From a virus, in IMG/VR virus record IMGVR_UViG_3300001352_000012, positions 1 to 56,007 of that record: a stretch of 56,007 nucleotides of DNA; one strand, written 5' to 3'. This document shows, piece by piece, positions 1,239 through 52,282 of the stretch. How positions within the stretch are numbered: the first letter of the stretch is position 1; every line of letters starts with the position of its first letter. Under the pieces are notes generated by a model. The model worked only from the letters and a program-made list of their open reading frames with translations. It searched no databases and was not told the origin of the DNA. Made by a program: the position numbers and the translations under genes.

Positions 1239-3490
1239 CGTACTGCTGTGTTATAAGTTGTTATTGCATCGTATAAGTCTGTTGCTTGGTTAGCCGTTAA
1301 GGATTTATGTATGCCGAAAAAGTCAAATTCCCAATCAGTAAAATATTGTGGACTACCAACAACGCTACCTCTTGCTAGCACAAAAATAGGGTTGACAGGT
1401 AACGTACTAGGCGAAAGTGAAATATCAGAAGCTGTTAAAACATTGTTTTCATACAGATTCATGGTTGTTGCATCTCTAGTTAAAGTAGATATACTCTTCG
1501 TGTTTTTAAGTCCTGTGAGACTATCACCATTACTACCAATAACTGCAGATGGATATGTAAGATTCATTTGAACAAATCTCAGTGGACTGGTACTATAAAC
1601 ACCCATCGCTACACCTGTATTTATCGTATTAACGGTTGCGGTGCTTACGGTTATAGCCATACTATTAACGTCTCCATCTACGGATGGTATAAACCCAGTA
1701 TCACCGTATGTATCTACCAAATTACCAGCTACCCCAGTAGTTGCGTGTGTCGGAGTGTTATACCAAGTAATGTTTTTAGTTGGGTCTTTAAGATTGTATT
1801 TCGCAGCAGTTAATGAAGTCGGTGATATAGGGTAAATTCTATCTGAATCACTCCATACGTCTGTGTTATTAGTTGTACTTCCTGTGCCTTTTAAGTCAAG
1901 TACCAATTGATTAACAGCCGCTTGTTCTGTTGCGTCTGTTATACCAGCTGCTGTGATGTAAGCAGTAGCATCAGGGTCATAAGCATTGTAAAGTGAATCT
2001 AATATTGTTTCAATACCAACTCTGTTTGCGCTCTGATCTGATGTGTAAGCTACAAGAGCTGACAATTTGCCACCAAAGTTTAAAATTCCTGCTGACCAAA
2101 ATCCAAATCTATACTCTGCCCAAATAGATGTGACTGCATCAATATGTGAAATTACCTTGCGTCCATTTGTGTCATTGTACACAGTAGTTCTATTTGTCAC
2201 ATTAATAGGTACACCATTTTGATATAAACTAGGAGAACCATAAGAAGGAGACGTTGTGACTGTACTCGTATTACCATCATATGCAATCATCCCATAATAA
2301 GACGTTATACTGCTGTTTGGGAATATGTAGGCGGTATCTCCATCCGTATCTGTTAAAAAGAATTGGTCTAGTCTAGCCTCACCAAATAAATCAACAGTAT
2401 TACTTAAATACTCGTTAATACCGTCAAATTTAACAGCAGGAACGCCTCCGCTAGTAACTACCACACCAGCGTTTACTATCATAGGTTGATTAGCCGCACT
2501 TGCTTGAATAAAGTTTGATGAGTTACCACTCTGGTCGTAGTAAGTAGTTACAAAAGCATCATAGTTACCGCCTGGATGGCTAACCCACATACCACTAGCT
2601 GGGAAATTATTTAATGTTCCGTTATTGCTATTTCCACTAGCATCAACAGCGGTAGTGTCTGTACCCGACTCATTAAATTTATAATATACATTTGGAGACG
2701 CTATTACACTTGTTGCAGTTGCGCCTAGTCCACCGTTATATAAGTCATCAACATTTTGTTGAGTTAATGAAGATTCTGTCTTAACAAATAGCTCATCAAG
2801 AATAAATTGCCCATAAGCACCACTACCTTCACCTATTCGATCAAAACTTATATTTTCGTTATCGTAGTTATCGGTATCACCTGTGTATTTTGTTCCATTA
2901 ATCCACATTTCATTTACTCCTCCATTTAACGAAACAGCAATGTAATACCAAGTACTTGTGGAAATGGCTGGAAATGAAAATGTAGTAGTTGCAGCACCAG
3001 CAGATCTACTTCTAAATGTAGCAGAGGTGCTATTGTTCCACCTAAACCATTGATTTCCATTAGTTGAATCGCCTAAAATATATTCAAAATTGGGCGTTGA
3101 TGAAAAGTTTACCCAAAATCCAAAGCATAAGCCATTTGAAAGGGCTGGTTTGGCAATTGCGGTAAATGAAACATTGTCATTTACCCCATCAAACTCTAAT
3201 GCGTTTTCAAAGATTGAATTAGTAAAGGCTTCTAATGCTGCTGTGTCTAATGTGTCACCTACAAATCCTATATCTAGTTCTGCACTATCATGTTGCCTTC
3301 TAGCCCTTAACGAATTGGTAGCTGTACTTGATAATTTAAAAACACTATAAGCTGCTGCTGCACCGCTATATGTATCAAGTAAGTAAGAAACCGCTGGAGC
3401 AGAGCCTGAAGGTGAACCCATGCCATCATGACCCCCAATAGATGCCCCACTACTAATTATACCCCTTATAAAACCGCCAAAACCGCCCAT
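1235..3490 (-). CDS. Receptor-binding tail fibre with nested LamG lectin-like domain
   Basis: The product is 751 aa. Residues about 1-35 are Gly-rich. A first half-module (AYSVFKLSSTATNSLRARR, LDIGFVGDTLDTAALEAF, about residues 45-90) is interrupted by a concanavalin/LamG-like beta-sandwich (about 95-305: LEFDGVNDNVSF, FGFWVNFSS, WYYIAVSLNG, FILDELFVKTES). The interrupted module then resumes as FVTTYYDQSGN at about 310. A second carbohydrate-binding-like domain follows (PAVKFDGINEYL), then a C-terminal module starting YITAAGITDATEQAAVNQL. This architecture fits a fibre that binds a host surface glycan. The chain is Thr/Ser/Asn-rich with no Cys, as usual for fibres. No catalytic motif was seen. 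Confidence 0.85.
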   Translation of the reverse strand: MGGFGGFIRGIISSGASIGGHDGMGSPSGSAPAVSYLLDTYSGAAAAYSVFKLSSTATNSLRARRQHDSAELDIGFVGDTLDTAALEAFTNSIFENALEFDGVNDNVSFTAIAKPALSNGLCFGFWVNFSSTPNFEYILGDSTNGNQWFRWNNSTSATFRSRSAGAATTTFSFPAISTSTWYYIAVSLNGGVNEMWINGTKYTGDTDNYDNENISFDRIGEGSGAYGQFILDELFVKTESSLTQQNVDDLYNGGLGATATSVIASPNVYYKFNESGTDTTAVDASGNSNNGTLNNFPASGMWVSHPGGNYDAFVTTYYDQSGNSSNFIQASAANQPMIVNAGVVVTSGGVPAVKFDGINEYLSNTVDLFGEARLDQFFLTDTDGDTAYIFPNSSITSYYGMIAYDGNTSTVTTSPSYGSPSLYQNGVPINVTNRTTVYNDTNGRKVISHIDAVTSIWAEYRFGFWSAGILNFGGKLSALVAYTSDQSANRVGIETILDSLYNAYDPDATAYITAAGITDATEQAAVNQLVLDLKGTGSTTNNTDVWSDSDRIYPISPTSLTAAKYNLKDPTKNITWYNTPTHATTGVAGNLVDTYGDTGFIPSVDGDVNSMAITVSTATVNTINTGVAMGVYSTSPLRFVQMNLTYPSAVIGSNGDSLTGLKNTKSISTLTRDATTMNLYENNVLTASDISLSPSTLPVNPIFVLARGSVVGSPQYFTDWEFDFFGIHKSLTANQATDLYDAITTYNTAVR

Positions 3491-3542
3491 CTTAATCTTT
3501 TTATGTTAACACCGCTATACTCACCTATTAATACTACTTATG

Positions 3543-3866
3543 TTACCCGTTTTCTTTTAGTTTATTTTTAGTTCTTTTCATTATCCAATTGATAATAGGA
3601 GTAGAAGAAAGACCCATTACAAGTCCACCAAAGTGAGGGTAGTTGTGTATCTCTACATTTATATTGAAAGACTCTTCTAAAAACAGTGACATCTCAGGAA
3701 AGACCATACAAAGAAGTATACCACTAAGTAAACTTACCATTAAGTTAGCCCATCTATCCTCTAACCACTCTCTTCCTGTTATATACTTTCTAAACTTAGG
3801 TAGGTTAGATATGTACATAATCTCTACTAGGATTACAGCTAGGGTCATTGTGAAGTATATAATCAT
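3543..3866 (-). CDS. Small membrane protein, holin-like candidate
   Basis: The product is 107 aa with about three hydrophobic segments (residues 2-20, 42-60 and 80-96) separated by charged loops such as KFRKYITGREWLEDRW, and a basic tail (KRTKNKLKENG). It is the last gene of a three-gene membrane cassette with the 74-aa and 214-aa genes. The cassette sits between virion genes and the fibre, as lysis cassettes often do. It could be a holin or an antiholin. No family is recognised. Confidence 0.6.
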   Translation of the reverse strand: MIIYFTMTLAVILVEIMYISNLPKFRKYITGREWLEDRWANLMVSLLSGILLCMVFPEMSLFLEESFNINVEIHNYPHFGGLVMGLSSTPIINWIMKRTKNKLKENG

Positions 3867-3872
3867 TACTCT

Positions 3873-4097
3873 TTATTTGTTTTTATTTCTTAGTTGGTTT
3901 ATTTTATAGAGTGTGTATATTGCTGCAAAGGTAAAGGATATAAACTTTGCTAATTCTGTAAGTATCATAATTCCCCCTGTCCAATCCTCTAATGTCCAAT
4001 CTAAAACCCCACCTATAAAGAATACACACCACACCTTAATTATACTAAGCGCACCATCAAATTGTGGTGTTAGAGGGTATAAAAAATTACTGTTCAT
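3873..4097 (-). CDS. Two-TM holin candidate
   Basis: The product is 74 aa with hydrophobic segments at about 17-36 and 45-66, an acidic linker (LDWTLEDW) and a charged, basic C-terminus (INQLRNKNK). Size, two membrane helices and a basic tail are classic class II holin features. Its start ATG overlaps the stop of the 214-aa gene by one base (TAATG), and the next membrane gene begins 6 bases after its stop. The role of forming membrane lesions at lysis is inferred from topology and context. Confidence 0.6.
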   Translation of the reverse strand: MNSNFLYPLTPQFDGALSIIKVWCVFFIGGVLDWTLEDWTGGIMILTELAKFISFTFAAIYTLYKINQLRNKNK

Positions 4098-5455: not shown

Positions 5456-8400
5456 TTAGTTGATGTTGTATTTTTTTGTAAGGGGTTTCTTTTTATTATT
5501 CTTTCTTTTACTCTTAGCTTTCTTTAGCATCTTATTTATTATGTTTGACATAGGTAACTGAGTACCTGCACCAACAGCTAAAGAGAGGTTCATTATAGCG
5601 ATAGATAAATCTGCCGCTACTACTGCGTCTATATCATCCTCCTTAACCATTTGCTCCCGCGACTTATTTACTGTTGCCCCTAGTGCTATTAGGTTATCAA
5701 CTGCTGGTAGTAGCTCTTTACCTGTAAACACACTAACATCATATTTACTAGATAAATTTATCGGCTTATTCACAAAAAAGTTATTCTTTAGTAAATCTGC
5801 CAATATTTTTTTATCTTCCTTATCTTCTGCCATATTGTACAGCGCACTTATAACTGCTATTGCTGCGCCCCTAGACACTTTTCCATACTTACTTACTGCT
5901 AGGAATGTCAGTTGGTTTGTTATTAAATCTCCTAAACCTTTAAGGGTAAACATCTCCTCCATTCTCTTTTCTGCCTCTTCTGCTTCGTCATCATCCCCAA
6001 ACATTATCTGCGAGGCTAAATAATATACTCCCATCATGTATGAGTATGTAATAGCGTTCATTAAAACACCCCCTGCGTTAGCTAACTCTGCTGCGTTATT
6101 TCCTTTTTTATTTCTAAGGTCTCCTGCGATGAACTTTAAGGATTGGAAAAACTCACCTTGCTCCCTATATCCGAAATTACCAAAGAATGACACTAACCTA
6201 CCTTGTGGGGAGTCAGCCTTAAATGTTATAGGTGTACCATCTTCTGACAGCCCTATACCTAAAAATTTAGACGGTGCTATCTCTACTGATCTCCTAGTCC
6301 CCCCTTTTGTCTTTGAGCCATAGATTCTTTCTACTAATTCTTGAGCCTTTGCTGTTGCATCTTTTATTGCTTGTAGGTTCTGTTCTTTATAAGCCTTATT
6401 ATTTAAGAATTTTTTTCTGTCAAAAGATTCTCCTGTTATAGACTGAAACTCCCTTCTGAATACGGGCATAAATCCTGTTATGGCTGTTAGGTATTCTGGA
6501 ATAGACATTGTGTAACGTCCAACCTTTATAAAAATATTCTCTCTACCTACCGCTTCCTTTACGCCTCTTCTCTCTATATCACCTGATTTAAAGTCTGCTA
6601 TATCTGCACCTGTTAAATCCTCTAATTCTCTTAGGGTGTCCCAAGATTCTTTATTGAAAGTGTCTGCTATACCTCTTGCACTTCTAACTTTGATTGGGAT
6701 AGATGTAAATGCAGCTACTATCTCTATTGCTGACCTTATTGGGTCAAATAAGGACTTAGCGTATCTAGCACCTAACAGTTTAGTTAACATTCGTGGGGTG
6801 TTGCCTATTGACTTTTCATAGTCTAGTGATGCGTTGTAATCCCCCTTTATGGCGTTTGCAATAACTCCTGCCTTTGTTCTACTTATGGTTTTATTAAGTA
6901 TAGCATTAGTTACGGGCTGTACCTCTGAGAATACATAATCTAATGAAGTGTCCTCAGCGTAGTTAATAACCATCTCTGCAATATTAACAGGGTAAACTCC
7001 AAATGTAGGTCTCAGGGATTCTGTTACTTTTTCCTTTCCTTGTTTTGCTTGTGGGCTAAACTTATCAAACTTCTTAGTTGTTGCGTCAACATCTCCTATT
7101 CTACCTTTTCTTTGTGTTGGTACATAATACACTTGAGGGTTAAACTCTATGCCCCTTCTTAAGTTAGCTGCTTCTTGTCTGTCCCTACCCTTTTCAAATA
7201 CCTCTTCTGCTGTTTTTAGCATCTTTCGTTCGCGGGGGTTGAGTAAACTTTCATAGTTTTCTGATAGTACTTGTACATCTACATACCCCTCTTCTGTTTT
7301 TGGTAGGCTCTCGTAGAACTCCTCTATATTCTTTCGTTCTCGGTTGTCCCACATTGACTTAGCTTGTCCCTTCTTATGGTACTCCTTTTCGCTTTCTGAT
7401 AATCCTGCCGCATCCATAGCTGCTTCATTACCTAACCAGATGCCAAATATATCTCTGTTCCCTACCTCAACTCCATCTGCTTTTGTACCACTACCAAGTA
7501 GTGATGCTTCTCTTAGATACTGCGCAATTATACCCACCCTATTAAAGCCTCGCTCATCTCTCCTAAAAATACTAGGGGACGATGCTTTTAAAAAGTCTTT
7601 AAGCATTGTGTCAGACATCTTCTTAGCCCTTGTAAAAGCATTACTCATAGGTTGATACACCATCTTGTATATCTCATCCCTCTGTGAGTTGAGTATATTT
7701 CTTACTCTTTGTGCCGCCTCTTTTGTACCTAATCTATCAATCCACGCTTTAACGCTTAACCCCTTGGGGTCAATTTCTTCAATAGCGTCAACAAGTTTAT
7801 CTACCCTCTTTGATTTACTTGCAGCAAATTCTCTAAGGTCTGATATTTCTTTAAATGGGATATTCCCCGCTATAATAGCCTCAGCCGCATCGTTAAACCT
7901 GCTTAACCAAGCAGCGTCATCAACCTTCTCAGCCTCTAACAGTAGTCTAACCTCGTCTGCCTCTACGCCATCAAGAGTTAACCCCTTTAGTTTTAAAACA
8001 CTCTTTTTGTATTTTTTACTCTCTTGTACTGTGAATTTGTCTAGCTCTTTTTTAAATATATCTACTTGCTCCTTTAACTTAGAGTTTAACTCCTCAGCTT
8101 TTTCCTCTGTTATAACCCCATCCTTAACTGCCTTGTCTATTGCGTTCTTAGCCCTTGTTAAGTTACCTCTTGATTGTGATGCTAATTGAGCCGTAGTTAT
8201 TTTATTAGACTCTATATCTATCTCTATTTCTTCTTCTAATTCTCTTACTAACTCTGGGTCTATGTCTTGTTCTGAATCTAAATACTCTCCAATTATTTGT
8301 TGTCTTTCTACTTCAAGATTTATGAACTGAGAGAAGGTTTCTGCTTTTGCTCTCTTTTTCTTATAATCCTTTATCTTTTCGGTAATGCTTTTTTGTGGGG

Positions 8401-43444: not shown

Positions 43445-43497
43445 ATATAATTATATAGTACACTAGTATACTACTATACTAATAGACTAGTATACTA
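43445..43497. promoter_or_regulatory. Palindromic operator array of the RHH regulator
   Basis: ATATAATTATAT (43445-43456) is a perfect palindrome. ACTAGTATACTA occurs at 43462-43473 and again at 43486-43497, each containing the perfect palindrome TAGTATACTA, 24 bases apart. CTATACTAATAG lies between. This is what a multi-site operator for a dimeric RHH protein looks like. Confidence 0.65.
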
Positions 43498-43627
43498 TTA
43501 AAAGGTTGCTTTTTATCCTTTTGTACGGATAGATAGAGGACGTATAAAACCCCCATAAACTTTACCCCAATAAACTAAACATAACAGCCAATACAGCTAA
43601 ACCCCTTTAAACACTAGCCTTTTAGAA

Positions 43628-45431: not shown

Positions 45432-45455
45432 AAATAGGTGATGTCTTACCATCAA
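45432..45455 (+). promoter_or_regulatory. Conserved leader element, copy 1
   Basis: AAATAGGTGATG-T-CTTACCATCAA, ending 7 bases before ATG 45463. Copies 2 and 3 are at 45836 and 46849. GATG and CATC could form a small stem. The internal ATG would also open a short out-of-frame peptide overlapping the gene start. AACCAATAAAC upstream is shared with copy 3. Confidence 0.65.
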
Positions 45456-45462
45456 ATCAATT

Positions 45463-45795
45463 ATGAAAACTATAAAAGTTAAATCCGCTTTAGGATATAG
45501 AGAAAGTGATTTAGAAAATACTACTTCAAATGATGATGCTTATGAAAAAGCATTTGATTCAATGGATGTAAACAACGCAAAATCAACTGAAGTAGTATCT
45601 GTCAATATACTAGAATTAGCTAGTGAGTTAGCAGATATGCAGCTTAAATTGGTGTGGGGTGAAACAAGGAAAGGTCTATATGAAGATGAAGATGCTTGCA
45701 TAACCACATATAGTGATGAAGCGCAAGACATATTTAATGATTTGTACGATAAGTATTATTCATTAATAGAAAGTATTCAAGAAGTAAACAACTAA
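45463..45795 (+). CDS. 110-aa acidic hypothetical protein with conserved leader
   Basis: It begins MKTIKVKSALGYRESDLENT, is strongly acidic and helical in its second half (SVNILELASELADMQLKL, EAQDIFNDLYDKYYSLIES). The leader element copy 1 precedes it. Small acidic early proteins can be DNA mimics or inhibitors of host enzymes, but there is no direct evidence here. No family is recognised. Confidence 0.58.
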   Translation: MKTIKVKSALGYRESDLENTTSNDDAYEKAFDSMDVNNAKSTEVVSVNILELASELADMQLKLVWGETRKGLYEDEDACITTYSDEAQDIFNDLYDKYYSLIESIQEVNN

Positions 45796-45835
45796 TATGC
45801 TGAAAAAGTTTTAAAAGAAAAATCAAATCAAAATC

Positions 45836-45859
45836 AAATAGGTGATGGCTTACCATCAA
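45836..45859 (+). promoter_or_regulatory. Conserved leader element, copy 2
   Basis: AAATAGGTGATG-G-CTTACCATCAA, ending 7 bases before ATG 45867. In this copy GATGG and CCATC form a perfect 5-bp stem with loop CTTA. Confidence 0.65.
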
Positions 45860-45866
45860 TTAAATT

Positions 45867-46328
45867 ATGAGAACAATAGAAACAAAAATTTATACGATAG
45901 ACGAGCATCCTGACCAAGATAAATGCTTTGAATGGATTAGAAATAATATATATGATTTGAATGAATGTTCAGTACATGAAGTAGTAGATAGCCTGAAAGC
46001 ATTACAAAAAGTAATTGGTGGAGACTTAGATTATTCAATCGGTCAATCACCTGATAGAGGAGAATTTATAACATTCAAAAACTACGATGAGGATTCGCTT
46101 AAAGAACTTAATGCTGATGAATGTCCACTAACAGGAGTATGTTGGGATGCTGACTTAATTAAAAGTATGCAAGCAGATGAAGATGCTTACTTTTATTCTA
46201 TTACTACTACCAATGGTGTATTGCGAGCATTGCATGAAGACACTGAGTACATTTATTCAGATGAAGGATTACGAGAGCTTTGCGAGGCAAATGAATATGA
46301 ATTTACAGAAGAAGGTGAAAAAATATAA
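45867..46328 (+). CDS. 153-aa acidic hypothetical protein with conserved leader
   Basis: It begins MRTIETKIYTIDEHPDQDKC and includes CFEWIRNNIYDLNECSVHEV, GGDLDYSIGQSPDRGEFITF and CPLTGVCWDADLIKSMQ. The opening, ending in an [AEW]-type helix after a short strand, recalls a broad class of small proteins in Bacteroidota and their phages ('...KAIEWIR'), of unknown function. It is acidic with several Cys and has no membrane segment. Leader element copy 2 precedes it, and a structured RNA-like stretch follows its stop. Confidence 0.6.
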   Translation: MRTIETKIYTIDEHPDQDKCFEWIRNNIYDLNECSVHEVVDSLKALQKVIGGDLDYSIGQSPDRGEFITFKNYDEDSLKELNADECPLTGVCWDADLIKSMQADEDAYFYSITTTNGVLRALHEDTEYIYSDEGLRELCEANEYEFTEEGEKI

Positions 46329-46329
46329 A

Positions 46330-46394
46330 GGTGCTAGGGACTGTCTCGAGAATGCCGAGACCAAGGGGTGAAAGCCCCTTGCTCCGCTCAAACC
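46330..46394 (+). ncRNA. Structured leader: two stacked hairpins, unknown class
   Basis: GTCTCG (46343-46348) pairs with CGAGAC (46356-46361) around a 7-base loop. Immediately adjacent, CAAGGGG (46362-46368) pairs with CCCCTTG (46375-46381) around TGAAAG. GGT (46330-46332) and ACC (46392-46394) could close a multiway junction. The element begins 2 bases after a stop and ends 18 bases before ATG 46413. It matches no riboswitch I recognise; a cis-acting leader or small RNA is possible. Confidence 0.5.
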
Positions 46395-46412
46395 AATAAA
46401 CAAAAAAGTATT

Positions 46413-46790
46413 ATGAAAGTTATACTAACAAATCGCGAATCAGAAGAGTTATTTTATATCTCCCTTTGCAATGGGGGAGAATACATATGTGGGTATGGTC
46501 TTGAATTAGATTATTCTGATTATGATTACGAAAAGGCTAAATCTAAGCTAGAGTCATCGTGCTACGAAGATATCTTAATGCAGATACTAAGAGATGGTGG
46601 TGAATTGGAACTAGCTGACCATGAATGTGATGGTGAATATAACAAGTCAATAACATTGAAAGACGTTCATAACAAGGTGCAAGAAACGCCCTTAAAGCAT
46701 CTAATAGATGCTATCAACGAAAATGACGATGCGTGTACCGCTGATGTCATCTTGCAAACTGTATTCTATGGAGAGATAATCTTCGGTTAA
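46413..46790 (+). CDS. 125-aa acidic hypothetical protein
   Basis: The start is ATG 46413 (MKVILTNRESEELFYISLCN); earlier codons lie inside the hairpin leader. It is strongly acidic (LELDYSDYDYEKAKSKLESS, GGELELADHECDGEYNK) with a C-terminal helical part (CTADVILQTVFYGEIIFG). It is preceded by the tandem-hairpin element and followed by a long hairpin. No family is recognised. Confidence 0.6.
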   Translation: MKVILTNRESEELFYISLCNGGEYICGYGLELDYSDYDYEKAKSKLESSCYEDILMQILRDGGELELADHECDGEYNKSITLKDVHNKVQETPLKHLIDAINENDDACTADVILQTVFYGEIIFG

Positions 46791-46791
46791 A

Positions 46792-46834
46792 ACCACATCA
46801 CCTCATAGCGTAACTGCTATGGGGTTTTGGTGGT
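46792..46834 (+). other. Long intergenic RNA hairpin
   Basis: CCTCATAGC (46801-46809) pairs with GCTATGGGG (46816-46824, one U-G) around GTAACT, and ACCAC (46792-46796) pairs with GTGGT (46830-46834) as an outer stem. No U-run follows, so a processing, stability or partial-termination role is more likely than a standard terminator. Confidence 0.6.
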
Positions 46835-46848
46835 ATAAACCAATAAAC

Positions 46849-46874
46849 AAATAGGTGATGTTGCTTACCATCAA
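46849..46874 (+). promoter_or_regulatory. Conserved leader element, copy 3
   Basis: AAATAGGTGATG-TTG-CTTACCATCAA, ending 9 bases before ATG 46884. The two extra bases change the frame of the internal ATG, whose short peptide would end in a TGA overlapping the gene start (ATGA). Confidence 0.65.
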
Positions 46875-46883
46875 AAAATTATT

Positions 46884-47039
46884 ATGAAAATATTTAAAAC
46901 ATTAGACGATGCAATATCTCAGTTAGAGGAAGATTATATAGGGTCTATTGAATCTCATATAAAGAGCATAAAAAGTAGGGGTATTACAAGATACAATGGG
47001 ACTATTTATATTGTTGATAAATACGGAATTTTAAACTGA
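46884..47039 (+). CDS. 51-aa hypothetical protein with conserved leader
   Basis: The frame from ATG 46884 begins MKIFKTLDDAISQLEEDYIG and ends RGITRYNGTIYIVDKYGILN. The first half is helical and acidic, the second beta-type. Leader element copy 3 directly precedes it, which supports translation because the other two copies also sit before real genes. No family is recognised. Confidence 0.58.
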   Translation: MKIFKTLDDAISQLEEDYIGSIESHIKSIKSRGITRYNGTIYIVDKYGILN

Positions 47040-51654: not shown

Positions 51655-51807
51655 ATGCTATCAGAAAGAACAAAAATAGCTATTAAGTTTTGGGGAGGGA
51701 TTCCCCCACGAAAGATAGCAAAGCAACTAAACAGAAGTGAGAGTTGGGTATCCACTCAGACAGATATAATAATGGCTACAAGACCTAGATATGATAACAG
51801 AGGATGA
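51655..51807 (+). CDS. 50-aa helix-turn-helix protein
   Basis: The start is ATG 51655 (MLSERTKIAIKFWGGIPPRK), preceded by AAACAAACT; an upstream TTG at 51625 lies inside the terminator. Residues about 15-38 (IPPRKIAKQLNRSESWVSTQ) form a clear HTH of the sigma region 4 / resolvase type. It overlaps the sigma-like gene by 17 bases. It may be an antagonist or partner of that protein, or a small repressor. Confidence 0.65.
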   Translation: MLSERTKIAIKFWGGIPPRKIAKQLNRSESWVSTQTDIIMATRPRYDNRG

Positions 51808-52282
51808 TTATGAAATATTTGTTAGGTACGCTAAGAGTTTACTGTTTAAAGACTCACAAGTAGCCCCCCAAGATATAGTACACAATGTAATCCTAAAGGG
51901 TATCCAAGAGAACCACTCAATAAGGTATATGATGTACAACATAAGAATGTCTGTTCTTGGTAAGGATAGGGGGAAAAGAGTAACAACAGATGTTATGCCC
52001 CCACAAACAGTAGAACCATCAGCCCATAAAGAGATAGAGGTAAAGGAGTTTATGACAGCCTTAGATAACATAATGATTTATAAGCGTGGGGGTAACGGAG
52101 GTAGAAGCAAGACAGTAGACATAAACAAGACACATAAGGCTAAGACGATAGTAAGAATGTCTTACGAGGGGTATTCTCAAAAAGAGATTAGTAAGGTTGT
52201 GGATATGGATAGTGTAGCTATCAGCAACCTTAGACTTAAGGTGATGAAAAGAATTAAACAACAATTAGAGATAAAAGGATGA
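51791..52282 (+). CDS. Sigma-factor-like protein (ECF-type architecture)
   Basis: The product is 163 aa. Residues about 5-40 (DDYEIFVRYAKSLLFKDSQV, QDIVHNVILKGI) resemble sigma region 2, with the alternating acidic and aromatic helices seen in ECF sigmas. Residues about 115-160 (AKTIVRMSYEGYSQKEISKV then MDSVAISNLRLKVMKRIKQQ) form a region 4-like HTH. The short length matches ECF sigmas or RNA-polymerase appropriating factors. It would redirect host RNA polymerase to phage genes. It starts inside the HTH gene and overlaps the polymerase start by four bases. Confidence 0.6.
   Translation: MITEDDYEIFVRYAKSLLFKDSQVAPQDIVHNVILKGIQENHSIRYMMYNIRMSVLGKDRGKRVTTDVMPPQTVEPSAHKEIEVKEFMTALDNIMIYKRGGNGGRSKTVDINKTHKAKTIVRMSYEGYSQKEISKVVDMDSVAISNLRLKVMKRIKQQLEIKG

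Follow-up and report, generated by a model that had tools for sequence, protein, structure and literature searches.

A short bipartite element placed just before the start codons of unrelated phage genes appears to be an unrecorded, movable signal that controls the start of ribosomes on the genes it tags. We regard it as a cis-acting RNA module of phage mRNA initiation regions, most likely a putative translational operator, a reading to which we give about even confidence.

The sequence analyzed, hereafter the window, is the whole 56,007-base stretch of an IMG/VR virus record and has a G+C content of 37.5%. The large terminase it encodes matched phages of Flavobacteriia in tblastn at 24-30% identity (Flavobacterium elemo phages; Maribacter Panino; Cellulophaga phi40:1, phi18:3 and phi13:2; Tenacibaculum Gundel; and one Caudoviricetes record), making a flavobacterial host very probable. 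Elsewhere, the window encodes a candidate phage sigma factor, a small protein (51791-52282) weakly similar to sigma-70 region 4 (PF08281, E 0.02; phrog_351, E 8e-4), and carries clustered, overlapping TAGTATACTA-like repeats (43456-43500) that may constitute an operator or an origin.

Three copies of the element precede unrelated genes

The original prediction of a three-copy element, with its halves split by 1-3 variable bases, ending 7-9 bases before an ATG and preceding unrelated proteins, held on each point. Exact matches to AAATAGGTGATG-N(1-3)-CTTACCATCAA number three in the whole window, all on the plus strand, and 100 shuffles of the sequence returned 0 matches. The copies end 7, 7 and 9 bases before the gene starts at 45463, 45867 and 46884, respectively, and protein comparison found no mutual relatedness among the products. 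Conservation continues beyond the core pattern as far as TTATG. The features of this region are as follows, with P1 and P2 denoting the two possible stems considered below:

45432..45455, plus strand: element copy 1; P2 45439-45443 with 45450-45454, alternative P1 45437-45441 with 45446-45450
45463..45795, plus strand: 110-aa gene tagged by copy 1; no match in Pfam or PHROG
45836..45859, plus strand: element copy 2; 6-bp P2, 45843-45848 with 45853-45858; fold -6.8 kcal/mol
45867..46328, plus strand: 153-aa gene tagged by copy 2; PHROG 10310, no assigned function
46391..46412, plus strand: A-rich leader without the element, AACCAATAAACAAAAAAGTATTATG, before a 125-aa gene (46413-46790)
46786..46834, plus strand: terminator-like hairpin 5' of copy 3; fold z -3.5
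46849..46874, plus strand: element copy 3, an exact pattern match; P2 46856-46860 with 46869-46873
46884..47039, plus strand: 51-aa gene tagged by copy 3

The A-rich stretch AACCAATAAACAAA lies upstream of copies 1 and 3, as had been claimed; the leader at 46391, which had been credited with part of it, contains it entire and is without the element. The gene behind that leader has a relative of 75% identity in the phage G001, likewise without the element. Just 5' of this leader and running into it, the intergenic stretch 46330-46392 folds compactly into two hairpins (fold z -2.8; 3' end AAACCAATAAACAAA); its sequence recurs in the carrier L007 ahead of a different gene, where it is combined with the 20-nt element.

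The terminator-like hairpin upstream of copy 3 has arms that can pair with one or the other half of the element (CATCACCT with AGGTGATG; TTTTGGTGGTA with TACCATCAAAA). The longest such helix is 11 bp, a length that 12 of 500 shuffles also reach; the hairpin is mostly kept in the carrier L003, where it stands ahead of another gene. Together with copy 3, it could act as a terminator/antiterminator switch.

The element recurs among uncultured phages and is optional

Pattern scans of viral contigs recovered at least 24 distinct leaders, all from uncultured phages, with the consensus A-GGTNRTG-N(1-3)-CTTACCAYYR-N(5-9)-TTATG. GGT and CTTACCA are invariant in all 24 leaders listed, which fall into three versions:

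GGTGATG-N(1-3)-CTTACCATCR: 17 of the 24 leaders listed
GGTAGTG-N-CTTACCACTA: 2 of the 24 leaders listed
GGTTGTG-N-CTTACCACTA: 5 of the 24 leaders listed

The proteins encoded downstream of these 24 leaders belong to 18 unrelated families, 3 in the window and 15 elsewhere. The window has three such leaders and G001 (54.5 kb; terminase 32% identical to that of the window) has five, with one each in many other carriers. G001 additionally possesses a second leader family, in which a palindrome (e.g., GGGTATTCAAATACCC) is followed by an ACTTAAA-like sequence 17-18 nt before the ATG; its three copies precede the L001 ORFs at 6455, 7972 and 10841 (reverse complement). In L009, a gene and its leader element form a tandem near-identical duplication (3449-3896, minus strand).

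A covariance model run over 685 kb of DNA from carriers and their relatives scored true copies at 44.9 bits or more and noise at 18.9 bits or less, with nothing in the gap; thus, no decayed copies were found in this material. No element was seen in 397 sampled Flavobacteriaceae and 295 Bacteroidia genomes, and among the matches listed from the pattern scan of genome_contigs all resembled chance. BLAST of the two main versions against cultivated phage records returned only chance matches, and the best covariance-model hit in eight cultivated terminase relatives (E 0.025) was an A-rich leader without the motif. Rfam gave no gathering-level match in the window, the element region yielding only a chance snoRNA (E 2.4), and we found no description of the element in the published literature, which is not proof of absence. 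These scans covered contigs that are mostly fragments, and many held parts of the motif fixed, so that more divergent forms would escape them.

The element is an optional leader module of about 24 nt, as the same gene occurs with and without it: the 51-aa protein of the gene at 46884 is 100% identical in L258 and L009, the leader being AACCAATAAACAAA-TAGGTGATGTTGCTTACCATCAAAAAATTATTATG in the window and AACCAATAAACAAA-AAAGTATTATG, without the element, in those two carriers. An ortholog lacking the motif, which the original prediction had named as evidence against it, thus does occur, once, and we read it as showing optional presence rather than as disproving function. Other orthologous genes retain the element, namely those of the MNTQENN family (G001, L009 and L258) and the MANHCYN family (G001 and L003). 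It is likewise kept before the L261 relatives of the first two tagged genes of the window: that of the gene at 45463 (blastp, 94% over 71 aa) has a different N-terminus, yet the element is present in both, and that of the gene at 45867 is distant (25%). The presence and absence of the tag before an otherwise identical gene offers a natural pair for a direct comparison of translation control.

Such joining of one leader to different genes (in L007, L003 and the window), the occurrence of one gene with and without the element in its leader, and the differing N-termini behind the element in the gene common to L261 and the window would also be expected if the element were merely a recombination boundary, i.e., a conserved leader through which cassettes of small genes are swapped by homologous recombination, with no regulatory role. 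We consider this very unlikely: it leaves unexplained the bases that are invariant across distant phages, the 7-8 nt distance to the ATG and the paired changes in the stem, and the decayed copies that would speak for it are missing from the cmsearch scores, which drop from 44.9 to 18.9 bits with none between.

The element is tied to the start codon

Orientation toward the gene is identical in all 24 leaders listed. Eighteen leaders place the last base of the element at a distance of 8 nt from the ATG, four at 7 nt, one at 10 and one at 11, so that 22 of the 24 have it at 7-8 nt, in the start region where a translational operator hairpin is expected. The gap from the upstream stop codon to the element, by comparison, ranges from -1 (an overlap) to hundreds of nucleotides. 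Since most scans demanded TTATG, the unbiased test of this distance uses the 8 distinct copies that were found with no start-codon requirement: all 8 have TTATG with its ATG 7-11 nt downstream, as against 0.5% of random positions. TT precedes the ATG in only 32 of 183 genes of these phages, with starts taken from open reading frames rather than from annotation. The tight tie to the start codon suggests a role in translation, or else near-leaderless transcription.

The latter would make the element a DNA site, a phage-specific promoter or regulator site with transcripts starting at or just before the ATG, which we deem unlikely while counting it as the most serious competing explanation. A transcript start near the ATG would account for the near-fixed distance, the strong conservation (GGT and CTTACCA identical in 24/24 listed) resembles that of a promoter, DNA sites bound by proteins typically contain inverted repeats, and the window has its own, weakly supported, sigma-70 region-4-like protein. 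Against this, the halves are separated by a spacer of variable length (1-3 bp), which neither a rigid double-helix site nor the promoter of a single-subunit RNA polymerase would readily accommodate. A palindromic double-stranded DNA operator should show fixed half-site spacing and free orientation, and neither is seen, the spacer being variable and the orientation uniform in 24/24. Furthermore, the element can adjoin or overlap the upstream stop codon (L001_1095 and L395), and the search for an RNA polymerase gene was negative, the DxDGD signature of crAss-like virion RNA polymerases occurring in large open reading frames only at spurious-looking sites. The PF00940 profile gave no matches, but its control was silent too, and hence the absence is not proven.

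Two mutually exclusive candidate stems

The small stem of the original prediction (GATG/CATC, said to be a perfect 5 bp in copy 2) is present, with its extent corrected: the pairing is TGATG/CATCA (5 bp) in all three copies, extended in copy 2 to the 6 bp of TGATGG/CCATCA. Overlapping with it is another stem, GGTGA/TTACC, which the original prediction had overlooked. In RNA, these give two mutually exclusive pairings, P2 (UGAUG/CAUCR) and P1 (GGUGA/UUACC), which together span the conserved bases of the hairpin save for the C preceding UUACC. The variable spacer occupies the loop, and its lengths of 1-3 nt fit a hairpin loop.

For P2, 95.8% of cells in the alignment are paired, a level that 0 of 500 shuffles equaled, and both the paired cells and the covariation score also exceed those of slid controls. 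Two-sided changes are seen at two pairs, G-C to A-U in 2 leaders and A-U to G-C in 7, with UGAUG/CAUCR becoming UAGUG/CACUA in other phages; they probably represent one or two events. Given so few independent events, and a central U-U mismatch in the P2 of five leaders, the covariation offers moderate support for this stem. P1 shows no two-sided changes. In context, the predicted probability averages 0.52 for P2 and 0.15 for P1 at 37 C, and 0.59 and 0.05, respectively, at 12 C (P2 of copy 1 reaching 0.97 at 12 C); P1 is thus disfavored by modeling and retained as a possibility. The isolated hairpins have predicted stabilities of about -2 to -6 kcal/mol if fully paired, and near zero or above in some mismatched variants. 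In several leaders, flanking sequence is predicted to outcompete the P2 hairpin; these include copy 3, where pairing goes to the upstream hairpin instead.

A putative translational operator

The idea that a stem controls ribosome access gains support from the near-fixed ATG distance across the 24 leaders, the constant orientation and the two-sided changes in the stem. In Flavobacterium johnsoniae, an efficient start is marked by A at -3, -6 and -12/-13, by low structure between -20 and +20 and by a scarcity of extra AUGs, which are avoided; in this phylum, initiation is usually reduced by structure and an upstream AUG (PMC6847099). Because the tail of the 16S rRNA is sequestered, it is kept from Shine-Dalgarno pairing, rpsU being the exception (PMC9976891). 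The untagged leaders of the phages studied here are A-rich at -15..-3, with A at -3. At -14..-11, A makes up 30% of the bases in tagged leaders versus 58% in untagged ones, and the unpaired probability over -20..-1 at 37 C is 0.54 versus 0.64.

We accordingly envisage the following mechanism, in which action in RNA, lowered basal translation and binding by some factor are all three what we infer. A small hairpin would form in the RNA, its stem being UGAUG/CAUCR or a variant thereof; the conserved CUUAC would occupy the 3' side of its loop, and AGG would immediately precede the stem. This hairpin would be held 7-8 nt before the AUG, where flavobacterial mRNAs normally offer the 30S platform unstructured A-rich sequence, and the element would contribute an extra AUG or GUG. 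With the hairpin in the A-rich place and the additional start codon, basal initiation should drop. A trans-acting factor, be it a phage or host protein or an RNA, would then read AGG/CUUAC and the stem to set the expression of the tagged genes.

As to that factor, some carriers are connected by terminase, polymerase and a small number of other families, none of them common to all, and bS21 is encoded by 0 of the 15 carriers tested (its control being positive). A host factor is therefore a plausible partner. As many carriers have a single copy, a dedicated regulon is not obvious. More speculatively, and in our estimate doubtfully, the element could be a bistable, mobile translational switch of about 20 nt, placed before arbitrary genes of Bacteroidia phages and read by a conserved host factor; if so, such a reader would explain the same sequence in distantly related phages. 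Given that Bacteroidia ribosomes mostly disregard Shine-Dalgarno sequences, a transferable tag of this size bears on how their phages steer translation, and it could serve as a compact regulatory part for flavobacterial genetics.

The opposite sign of control is also conceivable, i.e., a positive translation signal, in which the element would serve ribosomes as a phage-specific landing site in place of the A-rich S1 contact, favoring phage mRNAs during infection. The location at the contact of the 30S platform with mRNA, the near-fixed distance and the conserved TTATG agree with it, as does the AGGUGAU of the version found in the window, which we take to be complementary to the 16S 3' end. Several facts make it rather improbable. 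A Shine-Dalgarno site is expected 5-9 nt before the start, and AGGTGAT is located some 20 nt or further upstream, beyond pairing range, and is altered in other phages, the 16S complement being gone in the AGGTAGT and AGGTTGT variants. Structure and an upstream AUG usually depress initiation in this phylum (PMC6847099), and bS21 is missing from all 15 carriers tested.

Control by a short upstream peptide, suggested earlier from the internal ATG and the similar peptides encoded by copies 1 and 2, or by a decoy start is highly improbable, though an ATG or GTG lies within every copy. Of the two, a conserved leader peptide, but not a decoy start, is excluded, as the internal start lies in all three frames relative to the gene (17, 4 and 3 of 24), spacer indels of 1-2 nt shift the codon reading and the internal codon of seven leaders is GTG rather than ATG.

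Relationship to known systems

The putative operator stands apart from the A-rich, Shine-Dalgarno-less starts of Bacteroidia such as Flavobacterium johnsoniae, to which the untagged leaders of these phages conform: it displaces the A-rich block at -14..-11 and brings in structure and an AUG or GUG. Type III hammerhead ribozymes (RF00008) are found near it in one case. In the 81-kb phage contig L262, one such ribozyme (1848-1903, plus strand; E 1.2e-9, 47.2 bits, just below the gathering score) ends a few bases 5' of the element copy at 1912 and its gene, and G001 carries another elsewhere (L001:5936-5990, minus strand; 52.6 bits), with a downstream gene that lacks the element. The element itself is not a ribozyme, and no copy other than that of L262 was found with a hammerhead upstream; L264 has no Rfam hammerhead match, and linkage as a rule is thus rejected.

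Closer parallels come from the phage T4. Its operators for gp43 (the DNA polymerase), gp32 and RegA resemble the hairpin proposed here in being short, with a conserved loop, UAAC in the T4/RB69 gp43 operator (PMC3014915), and in adjoining or overlapping the ribosome-binding site of phage genes. Unlike these, the candidate operator described here precedes many unrelated genes across several lineages, and the sequences are unrelated. The GGAG sites of T4 RegB at early-gene starts, in turn, share with it the use of one short motif for the group control of many unrelated genes (PMC3014915), whereas the element is bipartite, has a stem and lacks GGAG. By analogy, the gp43 operator hairpin and the RegB target sites would be its closest mechanistic relatives, from which it differs in sequence, in its spread over many genes and in its optional insertion.
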